A stretch of DNA of 63,206 nucleotides from Anaerovorax odorimutans (GTDB lineage: Bacteria; Bacillota; Clostridia; Peptostreptococcales; JAAYPU01), in contig JAENZQ010000019.1 in assembly GCA_016841185.1 (NCBI GenBank), forward strand, positions 1-63,206. The letters are read 5' to 3'. The notes under the pieces are model-generated. The model was not told the origin of the DNA. It was given only the letters and a program-made list of their open reading frames with translations, and searched no databases. Of this stretch, positions 44,300 through 54,991 are shown piece by piece; within the stretch, counting starts at the first letter, position 1; each line of letters begins with the position of its first letter. The translations under genes were made by a program, and so were the position numbers.

Positions 44300-46762
44300 T
44301 TAATATTTTCCGAAACTGTCGTCATCCAACTCAATTTTTAATTCTTTCTTTTCGTCCTCTTTCGGCTCTTCTATTTTTTTATTGTCTGTTGTATTTCCGA
44401 TCAATTTCTTTTGAGCACCTTTAATTTTAAATTCCTGAATCAAAGCTTTAAGCATCTGGGCCTGTCCGGCCATTTCTTCACTGGCAGAGGCGCTTTCTTC
44501 AGCTGTAGCCGTATTGCTCTGAGTCACCTGTGATATCTGCTCGATGCCCTGGTTGATTTCGTTGATAGCATTGGCCTGTTCGTTGGAAGCATTTGCAATC
44601 ATACCTACGATTTCTACTGCATCTGTGACACCTGTAACAATTTGTGCCAGTGCTCCCGCCGTATCATTAGCAATTTTATATCCGTCTTCCACTTTATTAA
44701 TGGAATTGTCAATAAGATCTGTCGTCTCTTTAGCCGCTTTTGCACTTCTGGCCGCCAGATTTCGAACTTCTTCTGCTACTACGGCAAAGCCCTTGCCGTG
44801 TTCTCCTGCTCTTGCCGCTTCCACTGCTGCATTCAATGCCAATATGTTGGTCTGGAATGCGATTTCATCTATCACTTTGATGATATTTGAAATATTCTTT
44901 GAAGACTCTTTAATTTCATTCATGGCCTTCAACATTTCATCCATTTGGGTATTGCCATTCTGTGCATCAGTTTTGGCTTTTTCAGATAAATCGTTGGCTT
45001 TCGTTGCATTCTGGGCATTTTCTTTGGTTTGCTCCGCTACCTGTGTAATGCTGGCACTGATTTCTTCTACAGAGCCTGCCTGTTCCGATGACCCCTGCGA
45101 CAAATTCTGGCTGGAAGCAGCTACTTGGTCCGCACCTGTTTCTACTTGTTCTGCAGAAGCATTGATTTCATTCAGTATTTCATTCAGTGATTCGATGGTA
45201 TGATTCATAGCTTCTTTAATTCTTGCATATTCCCCTTTATATGCACCTTTGACTGCCACCGTTAAATCTTTCTGAGCTATTTCCTGCAGAACTGTTGCTG
45301 TTTCCTGTATGGGTTCAACCACTGCATCCATAGTCTTATTCATGCCTTCTATGATTTCCCTGTAACCGCCTTCAAACTTCTCTGCATTGCCTCTCACGCT
45401 TAGGTCACCTTCTATGGCTGCATCCGCTAACATGTTGGCTTCTTTTATGAGTTCCCTTATAGCAGTCATCATTGCTATGGCTGAAGGGATCAACCGGTCA
45501 TTATCAGATCTTTTCCCGATTCTCTGATACTCTTCTAACAGATTTGTATCTCCCTTTGCAAATTCCTCAAACAGCTCCTGAATGGCTAATAATCGATTTC
45601 GAACCTCATTGGTAGAATCCGAAAGGACCTTCAGATCTCCCTTATAATCCTTCATGCCTCGTGTCAGGTCATTTGTAGACATCAGGTGGAGCACTTCACC
45701 TGCATCATTGAGGCTCTCTACTATCACATCCAACGTCTTATTCATACCGGAAACAATATCTCTGTATCCCCCATGGAAGTATTCTTCATTTCCCCGGACT
45801 TTAAGTTCTCCGCTTGCTGCAGCCTCTGTCAGACCGTTTACTTCCTCAACCAGACCCGATAGTTCCGTAATAACTTTTTTCATACTTATGGATAATACAT
45901 CTTTATCCGATATAGGCTGAATATCAATTGATAAATCACCTTCGGCGATTTTCTGAGCATTTTGGGCCTGCTCTTTGATATTATTGGCCATTTCCGAAAA
46001 AGCATCCGTCAGCATGCCCACCTCATCCCTGCTGTTGGAAGTCACCTCAACATCCACATCTCCTGTTGAAAGTTTCTGTGCGGCCTTTGTGATTTCCTTG
46101 ATGGGTGTTGCAATAAGCCGGCTCAAAATGATTCCTATCAATATTGCTATTACAACTCCTGCCGCAATCACTATAATCATAATCATGGTGGCAGAATTTG
46201 CCGTTTCCGTATTGCTATCCGCCTTTTCATTTGCTTCTTCCGTCTTTACTTCGACCATTCTGGTAATAATATCCTGTTCGGCTTTGAGTGCCTTACCATA
46301 TGCCCCATCGTCTCCCATTAAGGCAATGGCCTCCGAAAGTCTGTTTTCTTCAATTAATTGCATGGCTTTATTATAAGCTTCCGCATAATCCTCTCTTGCC
46401 GCTGTCAATTCTGTATAAAGCTTTTGTTCCTCTTCAGACATAGGAACTGCCCCAAAAGCTTCATAGGCTTCTCCGAACACCGCCCTCCTTTCATTCATCT
46501 TGTCAAGAGCCTCCGCTCTACCCTCGGAGGTTTCTGCAAGAATGGCATAGTACATATAGCTGCGTACCTCCTGAAAGGTCTGGGTCATTTGTCCAAGATA
46601 TGTAATTGGCACTAAGTTTAGCTCGTAAAGTTCCGTATCCGCCTGGTTAATGGTGCGCATGTTCTGGATACCTATCACTCCGACAACTGCAGCAATAAGA
46701 GCTACCAAAACAAATCCGATGATCATTTTAGTCGCAATCTTACGATTTAGAAATATTGACAT
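44300..46762 (-). CDS. Methyl-accepting chemotaxis protein 1 (4HB sensor, multiple HAMP-like units)
   Basis: A protein of 820 residues. Helix 1 is at about 8-30, a four-helix-bundle type extracytoplasmic sensor at 31-190, helix 2 near 190-212, a HAMP array with repeated [29 protein letters not shown] units (about 215-520), and the signalling domain with hairpin tip [20 protein letters not shown]. It ends in the tail LDDDSFGKY shared by all four receptors. The ATG at 46762 follows AGGAGGG. Its leader carries a decayed c-di-GMP-I aptamer-like element. cheW follows. Confidence 0.94.
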
Positions 46763-46840
46763 ATAAACCCTCCTCATCTTATTATTAGATAAATTTTTCT
46801 TTAATAAATTCTGAGCTTATTAACCGCCCCCTTTCTATAT

Positions 46841-46930
46841 AAGAAAAAATCCAAATTGAAAACTGCCATTTCACAGGCTCTGTAGTTCTGTACTACACTT
46901 TATATGTTTCGAATTTTCATTTGGATTTTA
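46841..46930 (-). promoter_or_regulatory. Degenerate GEMM-I (c-di-GMP-I) riboswitch-like leader of receptor 1
   Basis: On the minus strand the 3' half matches the neighbouring aptamers (ACTACAGAGCCTG, then ATGGCAG), and the outer stem is strong (ATCCAAAT with ATTTGGAT, followed by TTTTTCTT). The 5' half has lost the conserved GGCAAA and GACGCAAA ligand-pocket words: they read TTCGAA and GTACAG, and the GAAA tetraloop of P2 is replaced. It is either a dead aptamer or one with altered specificity. It starts about 80 bases upstream of the receptor ATG. Confidence 0.6.
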
Positions 46931-47255
46931 ATTGAAGTCGATTTAAAATTTATCGAAATGTATAGAAATTAATATTTTATTGTCGTTTTATGTTTTTCTT
47001 TTACTGTTCTTCCTCTTTTTATTTGTATATGATCTTTGAATATATTTTTTGCTGCTTGGACAAGTTCATTTACTTCTATGAGTATTTTCAACATTTTAAT
47101 TTTTTTCCATTTTTTTACAAGTTCAACATATCATTTATATACTTACTAATATAATCGGAAATATAAGAATTATTTTAATAATCAAAATGAATAATTTGTA
47201 TATTTTTGTCGTAATTTATAATATTTTGTGATTTGTATCTGTTATTTTTGAATAA
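46931..47255. other. AT-rich promoter region of receptor 1
   Basis: No gene was found between the aptamer-like element and the terminator of receptor 2. The region is very AT-rich. A promoter must lie here but I cannot choose elements reliably. Confidence 0.4.
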
Positions 47256-47259
47256 TAAA

Positions 47260-47288
47260 AAGAGCCCCCTTTATGAGGCCCTTCTATT
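47260..47288 (-). terminator. Terminator downstream of receptor 2
   Basis: On the minus strand AGAAGGGCCTC pairs with GGGGCTCTTTT around ATAAAG, continuing as T and A bases. Confidence 0.7.
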
Positions 47289-47303
47289 TGTACATTAAAT
47301 GTC

Positions 47304-49784
47304 TTAATATTTTCCAAAACTATCATCATCCAGCTCAATCTTTAATGCTTTTTCATCATCCTCTTTTGATGATTTTTTAATTTTTTTATTTTCTGTTGTA
47401 TTTCCAGCTAATTTCTTTCCGGTACCTTCAAGTCGAAATTCCTGAATCAAAGTTTTTAGCATCTGAGCCTGTCCGGCCATTTCCTCACTGGCGGAAGCAC
47501 TTTCCTCTGCTGTGGCCGTATTGCTCTGAGTCACCTGTGATATCTGTTCGATGCCCTGGTTGATTTCATTGATTGCATTGGCCTGTTCATTCGAGGCATT
47601 GGCAATCATATTTACCACTTCTCCCGAATCGGATACAACAGCTACGATCTTGGTTAAGGCTTCGGCTGTAGCATTGGCCATTTCATAACCCTCTTCCACT
47701 TTGCTGATGGAACTATCGATGAGCTCTGTCGTCTCACTTGCCGCCTTTGCACTTCTTGCCGCCAGATTTCGGACTTCTTCCGCCACTACGGCAAAGCCCT
47801 TGCCGTGTTCACCTGCTCTTGCGGCTTCCACTGCGGCATTCAATGCCAGTATATTGGTCTGGAAAGCGATTTCATCAATGACCTTGATGATATTTGAAAT
47901 ATTTTTTGAAGACTCTTTGATTTCATTCATGGCTTTCAGCATTTCTTCCATTTGACTGTTTCCATTTTGTGCATCTTCTTTCGCTCTTGCCGACAGGTCA
48001 TTGGCTTTTGCCGCATTTTGCGCATTCTCTTTAGTCTGTTCCGCCACCTGCGTGATGCTGGCGCTGATTTCTTCTACGGAGCCGGCCTGTTCCGACGAGC
48101 CCTGTGACAGATTCTGGCTGGAAGCAGCTACCTGGTCTGCCCCCGTTTCCACCTGTTCCGCAGAAGCATTGATTTCACCTAATATTTCATTTAAGGATGC
48201 GATGGTATAGTTCATAGCTTCTTTGATTTTTGCATATTCGCCCTTGTATTCTCCATTCACTGACACCGTTAAATCTTTATCTGCCATTTCCTGAAGTACA
48301 GCAGCGGTTTCCGTTATAGGTCCGACTATTGCATCCATGGTCTTGTTCATGCCTTCTATAATTTCTTTATAGCCACCTTCAAATTTTTCCGTATTGCCTC
48401 TGACGCTCAAATTTCCTTCTATAGCTGCATCCGCTAACATGTTGGCTTCTTTTATGAGTTCCCTTATAGCAGTCATCATTGCTATAGCTGAAGGGATCAA
48501 CCGGTCATTATCCGATCTTTGTCCAACTTTTTGATACTCTTCCAACAAGCTTGTATCTCCTTTTGCAAATTCTTCAAATAATTCTTGTATGGCCAACAAT
48601 CGGTTTCTCACTTCATTGATTGAGTCTGAAAGCACTTTCAGATCACCTTTAGAATCATTCATTCCTTGAGTCAGATCATTAAGGGACATCAGGTGTAAAA
48701 CACGTCCTGCTTCATCGATGTTTTCCACTACTACATCTAAAGTCTTATTCATACCTGAGACAATATCCCTATATCCACCACTAAAATGTTCTTCATTTGC
48801 CCGAACTTTTAGCTCTCCGTCCCCAGCTGCTTTTGTTAATCCGTTGACCTCTTCAACTAATTTCGCCAATTCTTCTACAACCTTTTTCATGCTTAAGGAT
48901 AAAATATCCTGGTCAGATTTCGGAACGATATTAAGTGATAAATCTCCCTGAGCGATTTTTTCTGCATTTCCTGCCTGTACCTTAATATTTTGAACCATCA
49001 ATTGAAATGCACCCATTAATTCTCCTATTTCGTCTTTTGACTTCTGTATTATATGCACATTAATATCTCCGGAGGCAAGTTTTCTGGACGCTGCAGAAAG
49101 AATCCTAACCGGCTTCACAATCAAATTACCAAAAATCACATACATAATGACTGACAGGATAATGCCCGTTATAATAACACTCAAAATCAATATTGGCAGA
49201 TAGCTTTTAGCTTTTGCCAACACCTCATCTGCATTGATGTCACAGCCTATTACCGCAACCACTTCTCCCTTTGAGTCCTTTACAGGAAAAAAAGCAGAGA
49301 CAAGATTACCGTATTCTTCTCCCCCGTCCCATATTTCCGTAATTGAAGTTTCTCCCTGTTCAAACGCTATAAGGGCTTCCTGCGGAAGTAAATCTTTTGG
49401 ATCTGTCAGGCCAAAGTCCAGAAATCCTTCTGCGCCTTTTTCCCTGCTGCCATCTATGATATATTGAAAATTGTCGGCGTCTGCTTCAGTAAATATGTAT
49501 AGATATTCGGCCTGAACCTCTTTATTTATATTCAGCATCCATTTCCTTGCTTCTTCATAATACGGGTCCTGTGTGTTATTACTTTTTATCAGACGATCGA
49601 GCCTATTTATATCAATATTTCCGGCCACCGATTTTGTAACACTTAAAGCCTTTTCCCCCATTAGTTCTTCTATGTTGTTATTTAATGCATAAAACCCTAT
49701 TCCCCCAATTATTGAACAACTGATAAGGATAAAAATAAGAATTAGAATAGAAAACTTAGTACCTATAGATTGTAACTTATTCAT
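47304..49784 (-). CDS. Methyl-accepting chemotaxis protein 2 (Cache-like sensor)
   Basis: A protein of 826 residues. Helix 1 is at about 9-31. The extracytoplasmic region of about 165 residues resembles a Cache domain ([38 protein letters not shown]). Helix 2 is near 198-220, followed by a HAMP array closely related to that of receptor 1, and the conserved signalling domain ending LDDDSFGKY. The ATG at 49784 follows GGAGG. Its leader carries a well-conserved c-di-GMP-I riboswitch, so expression should respond to c-di-GMP. Confidence 0.94.
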
Positions 49785-49847
49785 AAAAACCTCCACATAT
49801 TATAAAAATGGTTTTATTAAAAAGCAGCTTACCCTCCTTTATAAAAT

Positions 49848-49941
49848 AATAAAAATCTAACTTGGAAACTGGCTGCCACTATAAAGGCCCTGTAGTTTTG
49901 CGTCTCATTCTTTCGAATGATTTGCCCTTTCATTTAGATTT
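49848..49941 (-). promoter_or_regulatory. c-di-GMP-I (GEMM) riboswitch of receptor 2
   Basis: On the minus strand: GGGCAAATC, the P2 stem CATTC with GAAA loop and GAATG, GAGACGCAAAACTACAGGGC, and GTGGCAGCCAG. These are the conserved GEMM-I core words, including the tetraloop and the GACGCAAA pocket strand. The outer stem AAATCTAA/TTAGATTT (49934-49941 with 49853-49860) leads straight into TTTTTATTATTTT, so the stem itself looks like the terminator. Ligand binding would then reduce expression. Confidence 0.9.
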
Positions 49942-50041
49942 ATAATGCTTTATATTCAATATCTTCATTATATTAAATTCTTTAAAAATAATCTACCAAT
50001 TTTTGTCGTATTTATGTGAATTTTGTCGATTTGATAAGCTT

Positions 50042-50073
50042 TTTAAAGGAACCCCGTAAGGTTCCTTTTTTAA
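50042..50073 (-). terminator. Terminator downstream of receptor 3
   Basis: GGAACC and GGTTCC with a CCGTAA-type loop (about 50047-50065); on the minus strand it is followed by TTTAAAA and on the plus strand by TTTTTTAAC. It is bidirectional. Confidence 0.75.
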
Positions 50074-50095
50074 CTAATTTTAATTTGGTACCCAA

Positions 50096-52162
50096 TCAGT
50101 ATTTTCCGAAACTGTCATCATCTAAAGCAATCTTTATATCTGCTTTTTCACCTTCTTTTGGCGCTTGGATTTTTTTACTGTTCAAAGTATTTCCCTCAAG
50201 CTTTTGCTCCGTATTTTTAAGGCGAAATTCCTGAATCAGTGACTTCAGCATCTGAGCCTGTCCTGCCATTTCTTCACTGGCGGAGGCGCTTTCTTCCGCT
50301 GTGGCCGTATTGGTCTGAGTTACCTGTGATATCTGCTCGATGCCTTGATTGATTTCACTGATGGCATTGGCCTGTTCATTGGAGGCGTCTGCAATGGCAC
50401 CTACAATTTCAACTGTATCTGAAGCTCCTGTGACGATTTGTTTTAAAGCACCGGCTGTTTCATTGGCGATCTTGTATCCGTCTTCTACTTTGTTGATGGA
50501 ATTATCAATAAGTTCTGTGGTTTCTTGTGCTGCTTTGGCACTTCTGGCTGCCAGATTCCGGACTTCTTCCGCCACTACGGCAAAACCTTTGCCGTGCTCG
50601 CCTGCTCTTGCCGCTTCCACTGCTGCGTTCAAAGCCAGTATATTGGTCTGGAAAGCAATTTCATCTATTACTTTAATGATGTTTGAAATGCTTTGAGAAG
50701 AATCTTTAATATCATTCATGGCACTCAACATTTCTTCCATTTGCTTGTTACCATTCTGAGCATCAAGCCTGGCTTTTTCCGATAAATCATTTGCTCTTGC
50801 AGCTTTTTCTGCATTTTCTTTGGTTTGCTCCGCCACCTGTGTAATACTGGCACTGATTTCTTCTACGGAACCGGCCTGCTCCGATGATCCCTGTGACAGA
50901 TTCTGACTGGAAGCAGCCACCTGATCCGCCCCCGTTTCCACCTGCTTTGACGAAGCATTGATTTCCGATAAAATCTGATTAAACTGATCTATAATATAGT
51001 TTATAGAATCTTTAAGCTTGACAAAATCACCTAAATAATCTCTTTCAATTCCTTTAGTCAAATCTTTATCAGCCATATCCTCTAATATGGTAGAAATCTC
51101 CTCTATGTAGCCTTGAATGGCTTCACTCATAGAATTTAAACTATTCTTTATTTTAGCATGATCGCCTTTATAATCCCCTTTGACTCTTGCTTTTAAATTG
51201 CCTTCAGATATCTCCTGCAATACATCCGATGCTTCCTGAACCGGTTTTATTACAGCATCCAATGTATCATTTATACCGCCTACAATATCTGCATAACCGC
51301 CTTTGAGTCCTGATGTGTCTGCGCGGTATGAAAGATTACCCTCTAATGATGCTTTCGTAAGTCCTTGAACCTCGCCTAGCATTTCCAATAAAGATTCTAA
51401 GACGTGATTCAGATTGACCACCAACTCTTTATAAAGCCCTTTATATTGATCGGTATTCGGAATATATTCCATTTGAGTTCCTGCAGCCATACCCGAAATA
51501 AATTCCATTCCAACTTGTAAGGGTTCGGATACAGCATCCAGCATTCTATTTATACCGGTTATAATGTCTTTATAGCCGCCTTTTACTTTTTCCTCATCAC
51601 CACGGGCATCTAAGTTTCCTTCTATAGCAGCATCAGAAAGAAGAATGGACTCTTCTGCTAAATTTTTCAGTTCTTGTACAACCTTTTTCATACTGAGAGA
51701 TAGCACATCTTTATCTGATTTTGGCTGAACGTTTATGGATAAATCCCCTTCAGATATTTTTTGAGCATTTTGTGCCTGCTCAGCGATATTATCGGCCATG
51801 ATTTTAAAGGTGTTTGTAAGCTCTCCTATCTCATCCTTTGAACGGCTGGAAATATCTACATCGATGTCCCCTTTTGCCAGCTTACCGGCTGCAACCCCAA
51901 TCTTATTAAGGGGTTTTAAGATAAAAAAATTCATTTCCACCATAATAATAATCGATACAACTAACAAATTAATTGCTGTAGATATATAGACGGAAAAATT
52001 TCCGCTTACCAGACTGATTTTTTGGACCCATCCATTGATAAAAACAGCAATCGTAGGGCTTATTAAAAGTGCTATCACAATTCCTATCAGCATTTTAAGC
52101 CTTACACCAAGCTTGACCTTTCCAAATACGTTGATCGTTTCATTTTTTTTATTTATTCCCAT
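50096..52162 (-). CDS. Methyl-accepting chemotaxis protein 3 (no large periplasmic sensor, poly-HAMP)
   Basis: A protein of 688 residues. Two predicted helices (about 21-45 and 58-80) are separated by only about 15 residues, so there is no real extracytoplasmic sensor. A long series of HAMP-type units follows ([53 protein letters not shown]), then the signalling domain and the LDDDSFGKY tail. Input is likely cytoplasmic or membrane-energy related. The leader has a c-di-GMP-I riboswitch. The signalling domain shares an apparently identical tract of about 497 bp with receptor 4, in inverted orientation. Confidence 0.94.
50226..50722. repeat. Left copy of a ~497-bp inverted repeat (receptor signalling domain)
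   Basis: By eye this stretch is identical, as reverse complement, to 54365-54861. At least 348 bp (50349-50696) give identical translations in both the sense and the antisense frames in the two copies. Divergence resumes sharply on both sides. Confidence 0.8.
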
Positions 52163-52230
52163 GATCTCACCCCATTGAAATTAAGTAATAAAATAATATC
52201 TAAGCCTCCTTTTATATATTTTATTTAGAT

Positions 52231-52331
52231 AAAAAACAAGAAACCCTTTTGGGAACTGGCTGCCATTTTACAGGCCCTGAAGTTTTGCGTCTCATCCTTT
52301 CGGAGTGATTTGCCTTTTCATTAAGTTTCTT
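52231..52331 (-). promoter_or_regulatory. c-di-GMP-I (GEMM) riboswitch of receptor 3
   Basis: On the minus strand: AAGGCAAATCACTCC, GAAA, GGATGAGACGCAAAACTTC, AGGGCCTG, ATGGCAGCCAG. The outer stem AAGAAAC (52325-52331) pairs with GTTTCTT and leads into GTTTTTTATC. The core words match those of receptors 2 and 4. About 70 bases separate it from the receptor ATG. Confidence 0.9.
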
Positions 52332-52344
52332 AAAATTAGCCTAA

Positions 52345-52375
52345 ATGCAACAATATACTTAATATGTTGCATAAA
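52345..52375 (-). repeat. Shared 31-bp palindromic element upstream of receptor 3 riboswitch
   Basis: This is the exact reverse complement of 52646-52676. Its ends are TGCAACA and TGTTGCA, forming a near-perfect dyad. It lies just upstream of the aptamer relative to transcription, so it is either an operator or a hairpin at the 5' end of the transcript. Confidence 0.7.
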
Positions 52376-52645
52376 CATTTCTTTAAGTCTTTTAATATTA
52401 ACAACCTTTGTAAATATACTTAATTTTATAAATTTTTTTAAGTGTAAATGTTATGTATCTTTTTATAAAAATAAATAGTTATTTGTGCATTTTTAAAGTA
52501 TAATTATATGTTTTTAATGTTTTAATTTTTGTTGAATGTGCCTTAACATTCGAGTATCCGTTGTTTATAGATGGTAATATATTCATTATTTTTGATAATT
52601 ATTAAAAAAAATGGAGAAATTTTTATTTATTTGTCGTATAATGAT
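52376..52645. other. AT-rich divergent promoter region between receptors 3 and 4
   Basis: No gene lies between the two palindromic elements. TATAAT at 52637-52642 is a possible -10 element for receptor 4, but no good -35 is present. The corresponding minus-strand elements could not be assigned. Confidence 0.4.
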
Positions 52646-52676
52646 TTTATGCAACATATTAAGTATATTGTTGCAT
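52646..52676 (+). repeat. Shared 31-bp palindromic element upstream of receptor 4 riboswitch
   Basis: This is the second copy of the element at 52345-52375, in the orientation of receptor 4. The two copies sit symmetrically in the divergent leaders, about 25-40 bases upstream of the conserved aptamer core. Confidence 0.7.
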
Positions 52677-52701
52677 CAATCAGAATTATTTTCCAAGTTC
52701 T

Positions 52702-52791
52702 AAATCTGAATGAAAGGGCAAACCTGTCGAAAGACAGGGACGCAAAGCTACAGGGCCTGAAAAGGCAGCCAGTTTCCAACTCGGATTTTTT
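52702..52791 (+). promoter_or_regulatory. c-di-GMP-I (GEMM) riboswitch of receptor 4
   Basis: GGGCAAACC, stem CCTGTC-GAAA-GACAGG, GGACGCAAAGCTACAGGGCC, then GGCAGCCAG: this is the best match to the GEMM-I consensus in the window. Outer stem AAATCTGA (52702-52709) pairs with TCGGATTT (52781-52788) and runs into TTTTTTATTT. Changes in this stem relative to the other copies are compensatory. Confidence 0.93.
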
Positions 52792-52811: not shown

Positions 52812-52829
52812 AGAAAGGAGATGTATTAA
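52812..52829 (+). other. Strong RBS followed by a two-codon reading frame, upstream of receptor 4
   Basis: AGAAAGGAG is followed by ATG TAT TAA, 50 bases before the receptor start, and then by an ATTAATTAA/TTAATTAAT hairpin (52825-52855). The receptor itself has only AAGG eleven bases before its ATG. The strong site may be a remnant start region or a standby ribosome site. Confidence 0.45.
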
Positions 52830-52873: not shown

Positions 52874-54991
52874 ATGAAAAAAAATAATTTAAAAATCAAT
52901 GAAAAAATCAATGTTTTTAATCATGTCAAGCTGAGCATAAAAATCAAAATGCTTGTAGGAATTATTATTGCAATATTAGCAAGCTCACCAATTGCTGTTT
53001 TTATCAATGGACTGGTTCTGAAGCTTACCGGGATAACCGGTAATTTCTCGGTGTACATATCAACAGGGATCAATGTATTGGTTGTATCCATCATTATCAT
53101 GATCGAGCTTAATTTGTTCATAATAAAACCATTGCAGAAAGTGATCATGGCCACTGAAAAATTAGCAGCAGGAGATATCGATATCGATTTGAATTATAAA
53201 GCCAAAGATGAGATCGGACAACTTTTTCTTTCTTTTAACAAAATCATTCTCAGCCTAAAAGAGCTTGTAAATGAATCGGATATACTAATCAACGAAACAA
53301 TCAAAGGAAATTTAGGCATACAAGGTTCAGAAGGACAACTGGATGGTAGTTTTAAAGATATCATTCAAGGTATGAACAGATTAGTAAAAACATTGACCCA
53401 CTACATCGATGTCTTACCTAACCCAAGCCTCATTATCAATAAGAACATGGAAATAGAATACATTAATGAAGCAGGCGCTGATCTTACCGGTTTATCACAG
53501 CAAGAAGCTATAGGCAGAAAATGCTATGATGTTTTTAAGACTTCTCACTGTAATACTGAAAATTGTTCATGCATTAAAGCAATGAAACAAGAAAAGCTGA
53601 TATCCGGCAAGACAGATGCACACCCAAACGGATTGAATTTAGACATTGAATATTCCGGCACACCTGTAAAGGATACGGAGGGTGATGTCATCGGTGCATT
53701 TGAAATCATAGAGGATGTAACTGAAATAATAAAAGCTCAAAGAGAAGCCAAAGAACAAGCAGAAGCCGTTCAGGAGCAGATGGATATTGCAAAAAAACAG
53801 GCAAAATATCAGGAAAATGAAGTTAAAAAACTTATTGTCAATTTAGATAAGCTTTCCAAAGGAAACCTGGATATTTCGACTTCTCTTGAAGAGGCTGATG
53901 AAGATACAAAAGAGCTTGCAGAAATATTTGAAACCATCAATAACCGTCTGGAGATCAGTGTGGATTCTATAAAATCATATATACAGGAAATCGCCGACAC
54001 CTTATCGGCTGTAGCCAATAAAGACCTGACCGTAGATATCGAAAGGGAATATCTTGGCGAATTTATAAAACTGAAAAAAGCCATTAATCACATTGTTGCT
54101 CAATTCAATGTAATCCTAAGTGAAATCAATGCTTCTGCGGAACAGGTAGAAACAGGTGCAGATCAGGTAGCTTCCTCCAGCCAGAATCTGTCTCAGGGCT
54201 CATCGGAACAGGCCGGTTCCGTAGAAGAAATCAGCGCCAGCATCACACAGGTGGCAGAGCAAACCAAAGAAAATGCGAAAAACGCCAAAAAAGCTAATGA
54301 ATTATCCGCAACAGCAAAACTAAATGCTCAAGAAGGCAATACTCAGATGGAAAAAATGCTGAAAGCCATGAATGATATTAAAGATTCTTCTCAAAGCATT
54401 TCAAACATCATTAAAGTAATAGATGAAATTGCTTTCCAGACCAATATACTGGCTTTGAACGCAGCAGTGGAAGCGGCAAGAGCAGGCGAGCACGGCAAAG
54501 GTTTTGCCGTAGTGGCGGAAGAAGTCCGGAATCTGGCAGCCAGAAGTGCCAAAGCAGCACAAGAAACCACAGAACTTATTGATAATTCCATCAACAAAGT
54601 AGAAGACGGATACAAGATCGCCAATGAAACAGCCGGTGCTTTAAAACAAATCGTCACAGGAGCTTCAGATACAGTTGAAATTGTAGGTGCCATTGCAGAC
54701 GCCTCCAATGAACAGGCCAATGCCATCAGTGAAATCAATCAAGGCATCGAGCAGATATCACAGGTAACTCAGACCAATACGGCCACAGCGGAAGAAAGCG
54801 CCTCCGCCAGTGAAGAAATGGCAGGACAGGCTCAGATGCTGAAGTCACTGATTCAGGAATTCCGTCTTAAAAATACGAGGAAAAAACTTGAGGGAAATAC
54901 ATTAAACAGTAAAAAAATCCAAGCACCACAAGAAGGTGAAAAAGCAGATATAAAGATTGCTTTAGATGATGACAGTTTTGGGAAATACTGA
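52874..54991 (+). CDS. Methyl-accepting chemotaxis protein 4 (PAS sensor with cysteine cluster)
   Basis: A protein of 705 residues. Two helices with a short loop (about 22-80) are nearly the same as in receptor 3. HAMP follows, then a cytoplasmic PAS domain (about 170-285) containing CYDVFKTSHCNTENCSC (four cysteines from about 216), further HAMP-type units, the signalling domain, and the tail LDDDSFGKY. The cysteines suggest a metal, cluster or redox sensor. A c-di-GMP-I riboswitch precedes it. Its signalling domain DNA matches receptor 3 over about 497 bp. Confidence 0.94.
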   Translation: MKKNNLKINEKINVFNHVKLSIKIKMLVGIIIAILASSPIAVFINGLVLKLTGITGNFSVYISTGINVLVVSIIIMIELNLFIIKPLQKVIMATEKLAAGDIDIDLNYKAKDEIGQLFLSFNKIILSLKELVNESDILINETIKGNLGIQGSEGQLDGSFKDIIQGMNRLVKTLTHYIDVLPNPSLIINKNMEIEYINEAGADLTGLSQQEAIGRKCYDVFKTSHCNTENCSCIKAMKQEKLISGKTDAHPNGLNLDIEYSGTPVKDTEGDVIGAFEIIEDVTEIIKAQREAKEQAEAVQEQMDIAKKQAKYQENEVKKLIVNLDKLSKGNLDISTSLEEADEDTKELAEIFETINNRLEISVDSIKSYIQEIADTLSAVANKDLTVDIEREYLGEFIKLKKAINHIVAQFNVILSEINASAEQVETGADQVASSSQNLSQGSSEQAGSVEEISASITQVAEQTKENAKNAKKANELSATAKLNAQEGNTQMEKMLKAMNDIKDSSQSISNIIKVIDEIAFQTNILALNAAVEAARAGEHGKGFAVVAEEVRNLAARSAKAAQETTELIDNSINKVEDGYKIANETAGALKQIVTGASDTVEIVGAIADASNEQANAISEINQGIEQISQVTQTNTATAEESASASEEMAGQAQMLKSLIQEFRLKNTRKKLEGNTLNSKKIQAPQEGEKADIKIALDDDSFGKY
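54365..54861. repeat. Right copy of the ~497-bp inverted repeat
   Basis: This is the reverse complement of 50226-50722. The two copies enclose 3.6 kb holding the N-terminal halves, riboswitches and promoters of receptors 3 and 4. Confidence 0.8.

Follow-up and report, generated by a model that had tools for sequence, protein, structure and literature searches.

A c-di-GMP-I aptamer stem that leads into a U-tract as candidate terminator of chemoreceptor leaders

Results

The window analysed here is a 63,206-nucleotide stretch of Anaerovorax odorimutans DNA (contig JAENZQ010000019.1 of assembly GCA_016841185.1, positions 1 to 63,206) that carries four genes for methyl-accepting chemotaxis proteins (MCPs), all four assigned as MCPs by Pfam. 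The leaders of three contain riboswitch aptamers of the c-di-GMP-I class, whose ligand is cyclic di-guanosine monophosphate (c-di-GMP), and that of the fourth a decayed aptamer. We evaluated the proposal that the outermost helix of these aptamers, P1, is at the same time the stem of an intrinsic terminator. The genes and aptamers are as follows.

44300..46777, minus strand: MCP1 gene (Pfam 4HB, HAMP, MCPsignal; start perhaps at 46762, by eye)
47304..49784, minus strand: MCP2 gene (Pfam HAMP, MCPsignal; start at 49784 judged by eye)
50096..52162, minus strand: MCP3 gene (Pfam HAMP, MCPsignal)
52874..54991, plus strand: MCP4 gene (Pfam PAS, HAMP, MCPsignal)
46841..46930, minus strand: decayed aptamer in the MCP1 leader (without Rfam match; aligned to an intact orthologous leader; fold)
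49861..49936, minus strand: c-di-GMP-I aptamer in the MCP2 leader (RF01051, 64.7 bits)
52248..52324, minus strand: c-di-GMP-I aptamer in the MCP3 leader (RF01051, 56.8 bits)
52707..52780, plus strand: c-di-GMP-I aptamer in the MCP4 leader (RF01051, 67.6 bits)

The initial annotation had called the MCP2, MCP3 and MCP4 leaders c-di-GMP-I riboswitches, and all three pass the Rfam gathering score for RF01051 with ease (56.8-67.6 bits against 35). Their ligand is predicted, from membership of this family, to be c-di-GMP, with cAMP-GMP as the alternative. The window's own genome has 11 listed c-di-GMP-I matches and 13 GGDEF matches, the latter making c-di-GMP a plausible signal in this organism.

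P1 was defined as the contiguous helix at the aptamer edge, with the aptamers placed by their profile-match coordinates. Its strands are listed below; the counts in brackets are the flank shuffles, out of 4000 for each leader, that matched both the stem stability and a U score of at least 4.5.

49934..49941, minus strand: MCP2 P1, 5′ strand AAATCTAA
49853..49860, minus strand: MCP2 P1, 3′ strand TTAGATTT; U-tract 49855-49843, UUUUUAUUAUUUU (12 of 4000)
52323..52332, minus strand: MCP3 P1, 5′ strand TAAGAAACTT
52237..52246, minus strand: MCP3 P1, 3′ strand GGGTTTCTTG; U-run 52236-52231 (1 of 4000)
52702..52709, plus strand: MCP4 P1, 5′ strand AAATCTGA
52781..52788, plus strand: MCP4 P1, 3′ strand TCGGATTT; U-run 52786-52791 (1 of 4000)
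46929-46919 with 46856-46846, minus strand: MCP1 P1 AAAATCCAAAT/ATTTGGATTTT; U-run 46849-46844 (from the fold)

In all four leaders P1 leads directly into a U-tract, as the initial annotation had claimed, with one exception of detail: in MCP3 a single G stands between the seven-pair P1 as first named and the U-run, and a terminal U-G pair makes the run immediate. Scored as contiguous helices, the stems reach -9.2 (MCP2), -12.3 (MCP3) and -10.8 (MCP4) kcal/mol; in these intact leaders P1 has 1-2 G-C pairs, and 71-76 nt lie between its strands. The window stems thus have the U-run directly after the stem that marks an intrinsic terminator, and lack the G-C-rich, short-loop hairpin that is its other mark.

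We found no separate expression platform. In none of the four leaders did a consensus scan detect a terminator-like hairpin in the interval from P1 to the start codon, and a second scan, of the three intact leaders, likewise detected none there; to be counted by either scan a hairpin needs three or more G-C pairs and a short loop, which places AU-only hairpins outside their scope and means that a weaker hairpin could escape. The downstream hairpin that would have overturned the initial annotation as the real terminator was therefore not seen by either scan. Within the scope of these scans the leaders have the layout of a direct-occlusion riboswitch, with the platform inside the aptamer and none apart from it.

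Recurrence of the arrangement in related genomes

To place the leaders in a wider context we used a sample of the order, in which 174 c-di-GMP-I hits were collected and, after two were dropped, 172 had usable flanks. At most 127 first-look candidates were scored per genome, and weak hits may be missing; one used hit (G064:C31) lies under the Rfam cut-off and is not in the class in which P1 runs into a U-tract (P1-U). For 21 related genomes, chosen for having hits before their P1 was inspected, P1-U was present in 25 of the 119 usable listed hits and in 15 of the 21 genomes. This compares with 2.4±1.4 (maximum 7) when the 60 nt downstream were shuffled and 10.6±2.9 (maximum 18) when downstream flanks were swapped, the high value of the swap control reflecting the stereotyped P1 that members of the class have in common. 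The arrangement thus recurs beyond the genome in which the initial annotation described it. A start codon lies close to P1 in six of the 25.

The window's own genome was the source of the idea and had already been inspected; P1-U occurs there in 8 of 11 listed hits. Its inclusion brings the sample to 22 genomes and 130 usable of 131 listed hits (one dropped for a short flank), and the count to 33 of 130 in 16 genomes, against 2.5±1.6 with shuffled, 13.2±3.1 with swapped and 4 with reversed downstream flanks. At a looser cut-off the whole order sample gave 46 of 172 (7.7±2.3 shuffled, 27.0±3.1 swapped). Outside the order, 10 of the 78 hits among the matches listed, which include tandem loci fetched on purpose, were P1-U, compared with 0.9±1.0 in shuffles.

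As these counts select on pairing, so that pairing inside the selected class is circular, loci were also chosen by U-run position alone, and such unselected tests supersede it. By this rule 97 of 252 loci qualified. In 43% of them the 5′ flank paired, at -8 kcal/mol or better, with the strand before the U-run; the figure was 16±3.5% after the 5′ flanks had been swapped and 8±2.7% after they had been shuffled. The result was much the same without the window's own genome (42% of 89 loci against 16±3.4% swapped). These swap percentages are a fairer measure than the Mann-Whitney p of the test, which combines 20 swaps and related loci and comes out too small. Conversely, in loci picked by stem strength alone the T fraction in the six bases after P1 was 0.57, compared with 0.36±0.03 in shuffles.

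Separate terminators are scarce where P1-U occurs. They were found in 5 of 36 P1-U leaders and in 56 of 136 other leaders (nominal p 0.003), in 4 of 28 and 55 of 133 without the window's own genome (p 0.009), and in 5 of 29 and 55 of 130 when leaders with a start codon adjoining P1 were omitted (p 0.012). One P1-U locus, L012, has a separate terminator whose 5′ part could, by eye, pair with the P1 5′ strand, and looks like a strand-exchange relative. Of ten downstream proteins picked, six are Transglut_core proteins, which indicates that the P1-U type is not confined to receptors. The P1-U arrangement is not due to chance, and the sequence comparisons make P1 well supported as a selected terminator stem.

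Tandem aptamers

The best argument for P1-U as a terminator comes from the linkers of tandem aptamers. The set comprised 26 linkers that separate neighbouring aptamers by 15-130 nt, shorter and longer ones being excluded (among those under 15 nt, two of 14 pairs in one tandem list). In a first scoring, P1-U followed the first copy in 14 of 26 linkers, none of the 14 with a separate terminator (nominal p 0.0012), while 7 had a separate terminator only and 5 had neither. A second scoring gave 14 P1-U, 5 separate terminators and 7 with neither (p 0.012), with 0.2±0.4 P1-U linkers under the null. The two P1-U sets overlap in 13 of 14 members, the first coming from 11 genomes. The number of separate terminators (7 or 5 of 26) depends on the scoring: G383:C1:1567210 was found by the second only, and G379, G405:C14 and G011 by the first only.

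The P1-U linkers span 29-84 nt. After the next aptamer, in the first bases, where the 3′ strand of its P1 lies, a Shine-Dalgarno-like motif with a start codon soon after was found in 11 of the 14 P1-U tandems. In the related genomes P1 appears to serve as terminator in the first aptamer of a tandem and as Shine-Dalgarno cover in the last; at a three-copy locus in G383 the order is U-run, U-run, Shine-Dalgarno. Because P1 closing over a Shine-Dalgarno sequence should repress, a coherent pair would need an OFF first copy, a soft argument on the sign of the switch.

Contig C14 of the window's own genome holds two tandems. In one (L006/L007) the first P1 precedes a weak U-run and the second lies over GGAGAG just before an ATG; in the other (L004, L003) both copies have a U-run.

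A decayed aptamer in the MCP1 leader

The MCP1 leader gave no Rfam match up to E=5, and so did not reach the RF01051 cut-off. Its orthologue in a related genome (G002:C6; 79% identity over 197 N-terminal residues) has a leader with an intact c-di-GMP-I aptamer (L019, 59.6 bits), with which the MCP1 leader aligns, in keeping with the earlier description of this leader as a decayed relative. By eye, the GGGCAAA, GACGCAA and GGCAGCC stretches are gone from the MCP1 leader, while pairing in P1 is kept through a T-A to C-G change. The MCP1 P1 has 11 bp and encloses 62 nt, and folding predicts that it extends into the junction to form a single long stem. Since the conserved aptamer stretches are lost, this leader would be at most a ligand-independent attenuator. 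The claim that all four leaders share the device therefore stands for their anatomy, P1 running into a U-tract in each, and fails for the switch in MCP1.

Other features near the leaders

A second Shine-Dalgarno-like purine run follows P1 by 10-25 nt, well ahead of the Shine-Dalgarno sequence of the gene itself, at 49840-49833 (minus strand), 52213-52205 (minus strand) and 52814-52821 (plus strand), and it is also present in the MCP1 leader (by eye) and the G002 orthologue leader. Among 29 P1-U leaders not adjoining a start codon it was found in six, two of them with a run that could be the one belonging to the gene. We take it to resemble the mRNA stabiliser STAB-SD.

Just upstream of the two divergent riboswitch leaders stands a 26-bp near-palindrome, TGCAACATATTAAGTATATTGTTGCA, at 52346-52371 and 52650-52675, oriented the same way with respect to each gene. 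An exact search of the genome for TGCAACA-N8-14-TGTTGCA returned these two sites only, and none for the pattern read backwards. The element might be an operator or a 5′ hairpin. Repeated TTGTCG motifs were seen by eye on the plus strand near 46980, 47207, 50004, 50023 and 52631, intergenic around the leaders.

Discussion

In sequence and fold the window aptamers are like the known c-di-GMP-I members (GEMM-I, RF01051; Vc2, Cd1, Bc1, Bc2, Bc3-5), from which they differ in how the output is built. Bc1 also lies upstream of an MCP gene (PMC4933901, PMC11218506) but has two separate downstream terminators (PMC11218506), whereas in the window P1 itself is the stem before the U-run. The same contrast holds for Cd1, whose terminator is made by downstream strands (PMC9262584), for Bc2, an ON switch with its own terminator (PMC4933901), and for Bc4, in which nucleotides of P1 go into a terminator opposed to the aptamer (PMC4759541). 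In Vc2, an OFF switch that acts on translation, the stability of P1 matters (PMC9262584). Outside the class, the HMP-PP (thiS) riboswitch has an aptamer embedded in a terminator, with strands common to both as here, but its ligand-bound fold excludes the terminator (ON; PMC6478431), while here the aptamer contains the terminator stem and the predicted sign is OFF. Direct-occlusion riboswitches likewise have the platform integrated in the aptamer, although the examples given act on translation (PMC10907184), unlike the transcriptional stop proposed for the window leaders. In the same 2024 review a ligand-stabilised terminator is held possible in principle and unlikely to be found, and guanidine-IV is named only as a possible case of a ligand-destabilised one. 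Tandems of SAM-II and SAM-V divide their labour as proposed here, transcription by the first copy and translation by the second (PMC9481103), but the tandems here are two c-di-GMP-I copies that both apparently use P1. PMC9481103 counts 347 c-di-GMP-I doublets, tabulates them as pseudo-cooperative, and states that tandem riboswitches had not been comprehensively evaluated for mechanism. A literature search that covered partial texts and only some of the original papers returned no description of P1 as terminator in the c-di-GMP-I class, and an earlier mention is possible.

These data allow us to propose, as the reading we somewhat favour, that the intact leaders are OFF switches without strand exchange, in which c-di-GMP helps to close P1 and this helix is itself the terminator. 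With the U-tract beginning where P1 ends on its 3′ side, aptamer and expression platform would be fused, the helix that closes the one being the stem of the other. P2 and P3 would fold and bind c-di-GMP while the aptamer leaves the polymerase, and the bound core would keep the 5′ strand of P1 beside its emerging 3′ strand. P1 would then zip with the polymerase on the U-tract, ending transcription. Without ligand the weak P1, its strands 71-76 nt apart, would close too slowly and transcription would read through into the receptor gene. Whereas P1 as terminator stem, the first half of the central claim of the initial annotation, is upheld by the comparison with other genomes, the other half, that c-di-GMP causes termination with no alternative fold, is one that we infer, as we do the OFF sign and the kinetics. 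Provided that the bound aptamer includes P1, as in Vc2, the ligand cannot free the gene by breaking P1, so that OFF is the simplest output of P1 and a U-run; the same reasoning would give OFF for a partner whose P1 covers a Shine-Dalgarno sequence. Consistent with this, the c-GAMP (cyclic GMP-AMP) switch pilM requires ligand for P1 formation (PMC9262584), and as Cd1 binds c-di-GMP without detectable P1, binding can precede P1. An ON switch by HMP-PP-like logic was set aside on the expectation that P1 is present in the bound aptamer, an expectation that Cd1 weakens.

Several observations weigh against this OFF switch. Folding of transcripts that end at P1 predicts the helix without ligand, with probabilities of 0.87 (MCP4), 0.92 (MCP2) and 0.83 (MCP3) when 15 nt upstream are included and 0.92, 0.86 and 0.30 when 60 nt are, so that no clear apo state is predicted and switching would have to be kinetic. 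The 36 P1-U loci have a median of 0.83 or 0.26, depending on the assumed 5′ end, and a lower one when the transcript is 30 nt longer. Time would be short: only 11-18 nt separate the aptamer end from the U-tract end, less than the 25-nt binding window reported for pilM (PMC9262584), and PMC10907184 deems such a switch unlikely for want of time. The absence of any detected P1 in Cd1 (PMC9262584) suggests that an aptamer of the class can be bound without forming P1. With its few G-C pairs and big loop P1 is unlike a standard terminator, and MCP1 retains P1 and the U-run despite loss of the aptamer core, which raises the possibility that P1 is kept for another purpose. In the comparisons, the five P1-U leaders with a separate terminator count the other way, the same loose Shine-Dalgarno test succeeds after 6 of 12 non-P1-U linkers (11 of 14 against 6 of 12, p 0.22), and the p-values given above are too small because the loci are related.

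The prediction of P1 in the absence of ligand would also be expected of a constitutive attenuator, in which P1 and the U-run stop a fixed share of transcripts, ligand or not, with the aptamer ancestral or a slight tuner. The MCP1 leader, with its 11-bp P1 changed by eye at one pair on both sides relative to its orthologue, resembles such a device, but the other three aptamers score well above the Rfam cut-off, whereas without ligand sensing such aptamers would be expected to decay; we consider this explanation rather unlikely for them. A platform that exchanges strands could instead have gone unrecognised, either with the P1 partner sequestered in the apo state or with a downstream AU-rich hairpin as the real terminator. 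AU-rich inverted repeats do lie downstream (for example ATTAATTAA/TTAATTAAT in the MCP4 leader, by eye), hairpins without G-C pairs would not be counted by our scans, and L012 offers a possible precedent. Against this, the two scans yield no terminator-like site in the leaders, the P1-U tandem linkers leave little room, and no alternative pairing common to the window leaders was seen by eye, no formal test having been made, such that we regard strand exchange as unlikely.

P1 and the U-run could also act after transcription, on translation or mRNA stability, perhaps by way of the second purine run (AAAGGAGG-like). This run recurs in the four window leaders and the G002 orthologue, and elsewhere a Shine-Dalgarno-like motif lies at P1 just before the start codon. 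The window P1s, however, cover no Shine-Dalgarno sequence, and the U-run begins where P1 ends, the position that a terminator needs, making post-transcriptional action quite improbable here. That AT-rich leaders merely place U-runs near any stem is more improbable still: the downstream background has a T fraction of 0.30, and P1 belongs to the aptamer in any case, but the enrichment exceeds shuffles, swaps and reversal, and does so without the window's own genome.

The OFF switch may be one case of a broader type. We tentatively suggest, as a proposal whose chances we put just short of even, that Clostridia-like bacteria have widespread transcriptional switches in which c-di-GMP completes a terminator without strand exchange, and that in tandems P1 serves the first copy as terminator and the last as cover of a Shine-Dalgarno sequence, giving a two-level off switch for one ligand from aptamers only. 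Models of riboswitches are for the most part built on two pairings between which the RNA chooses. If the proposal is true, a class whose ligand does no more than complete the terminator would be the very case that a recent review thought unlikely, and it would offer a very small OFF switch for RNA engineering. The P1-U tandems that stand beside tandems with conventional terminators provide ready test pairs. For the bacterium itself, it would tie c-di-GMP directly to the shut-off of chemoreceptor genes.

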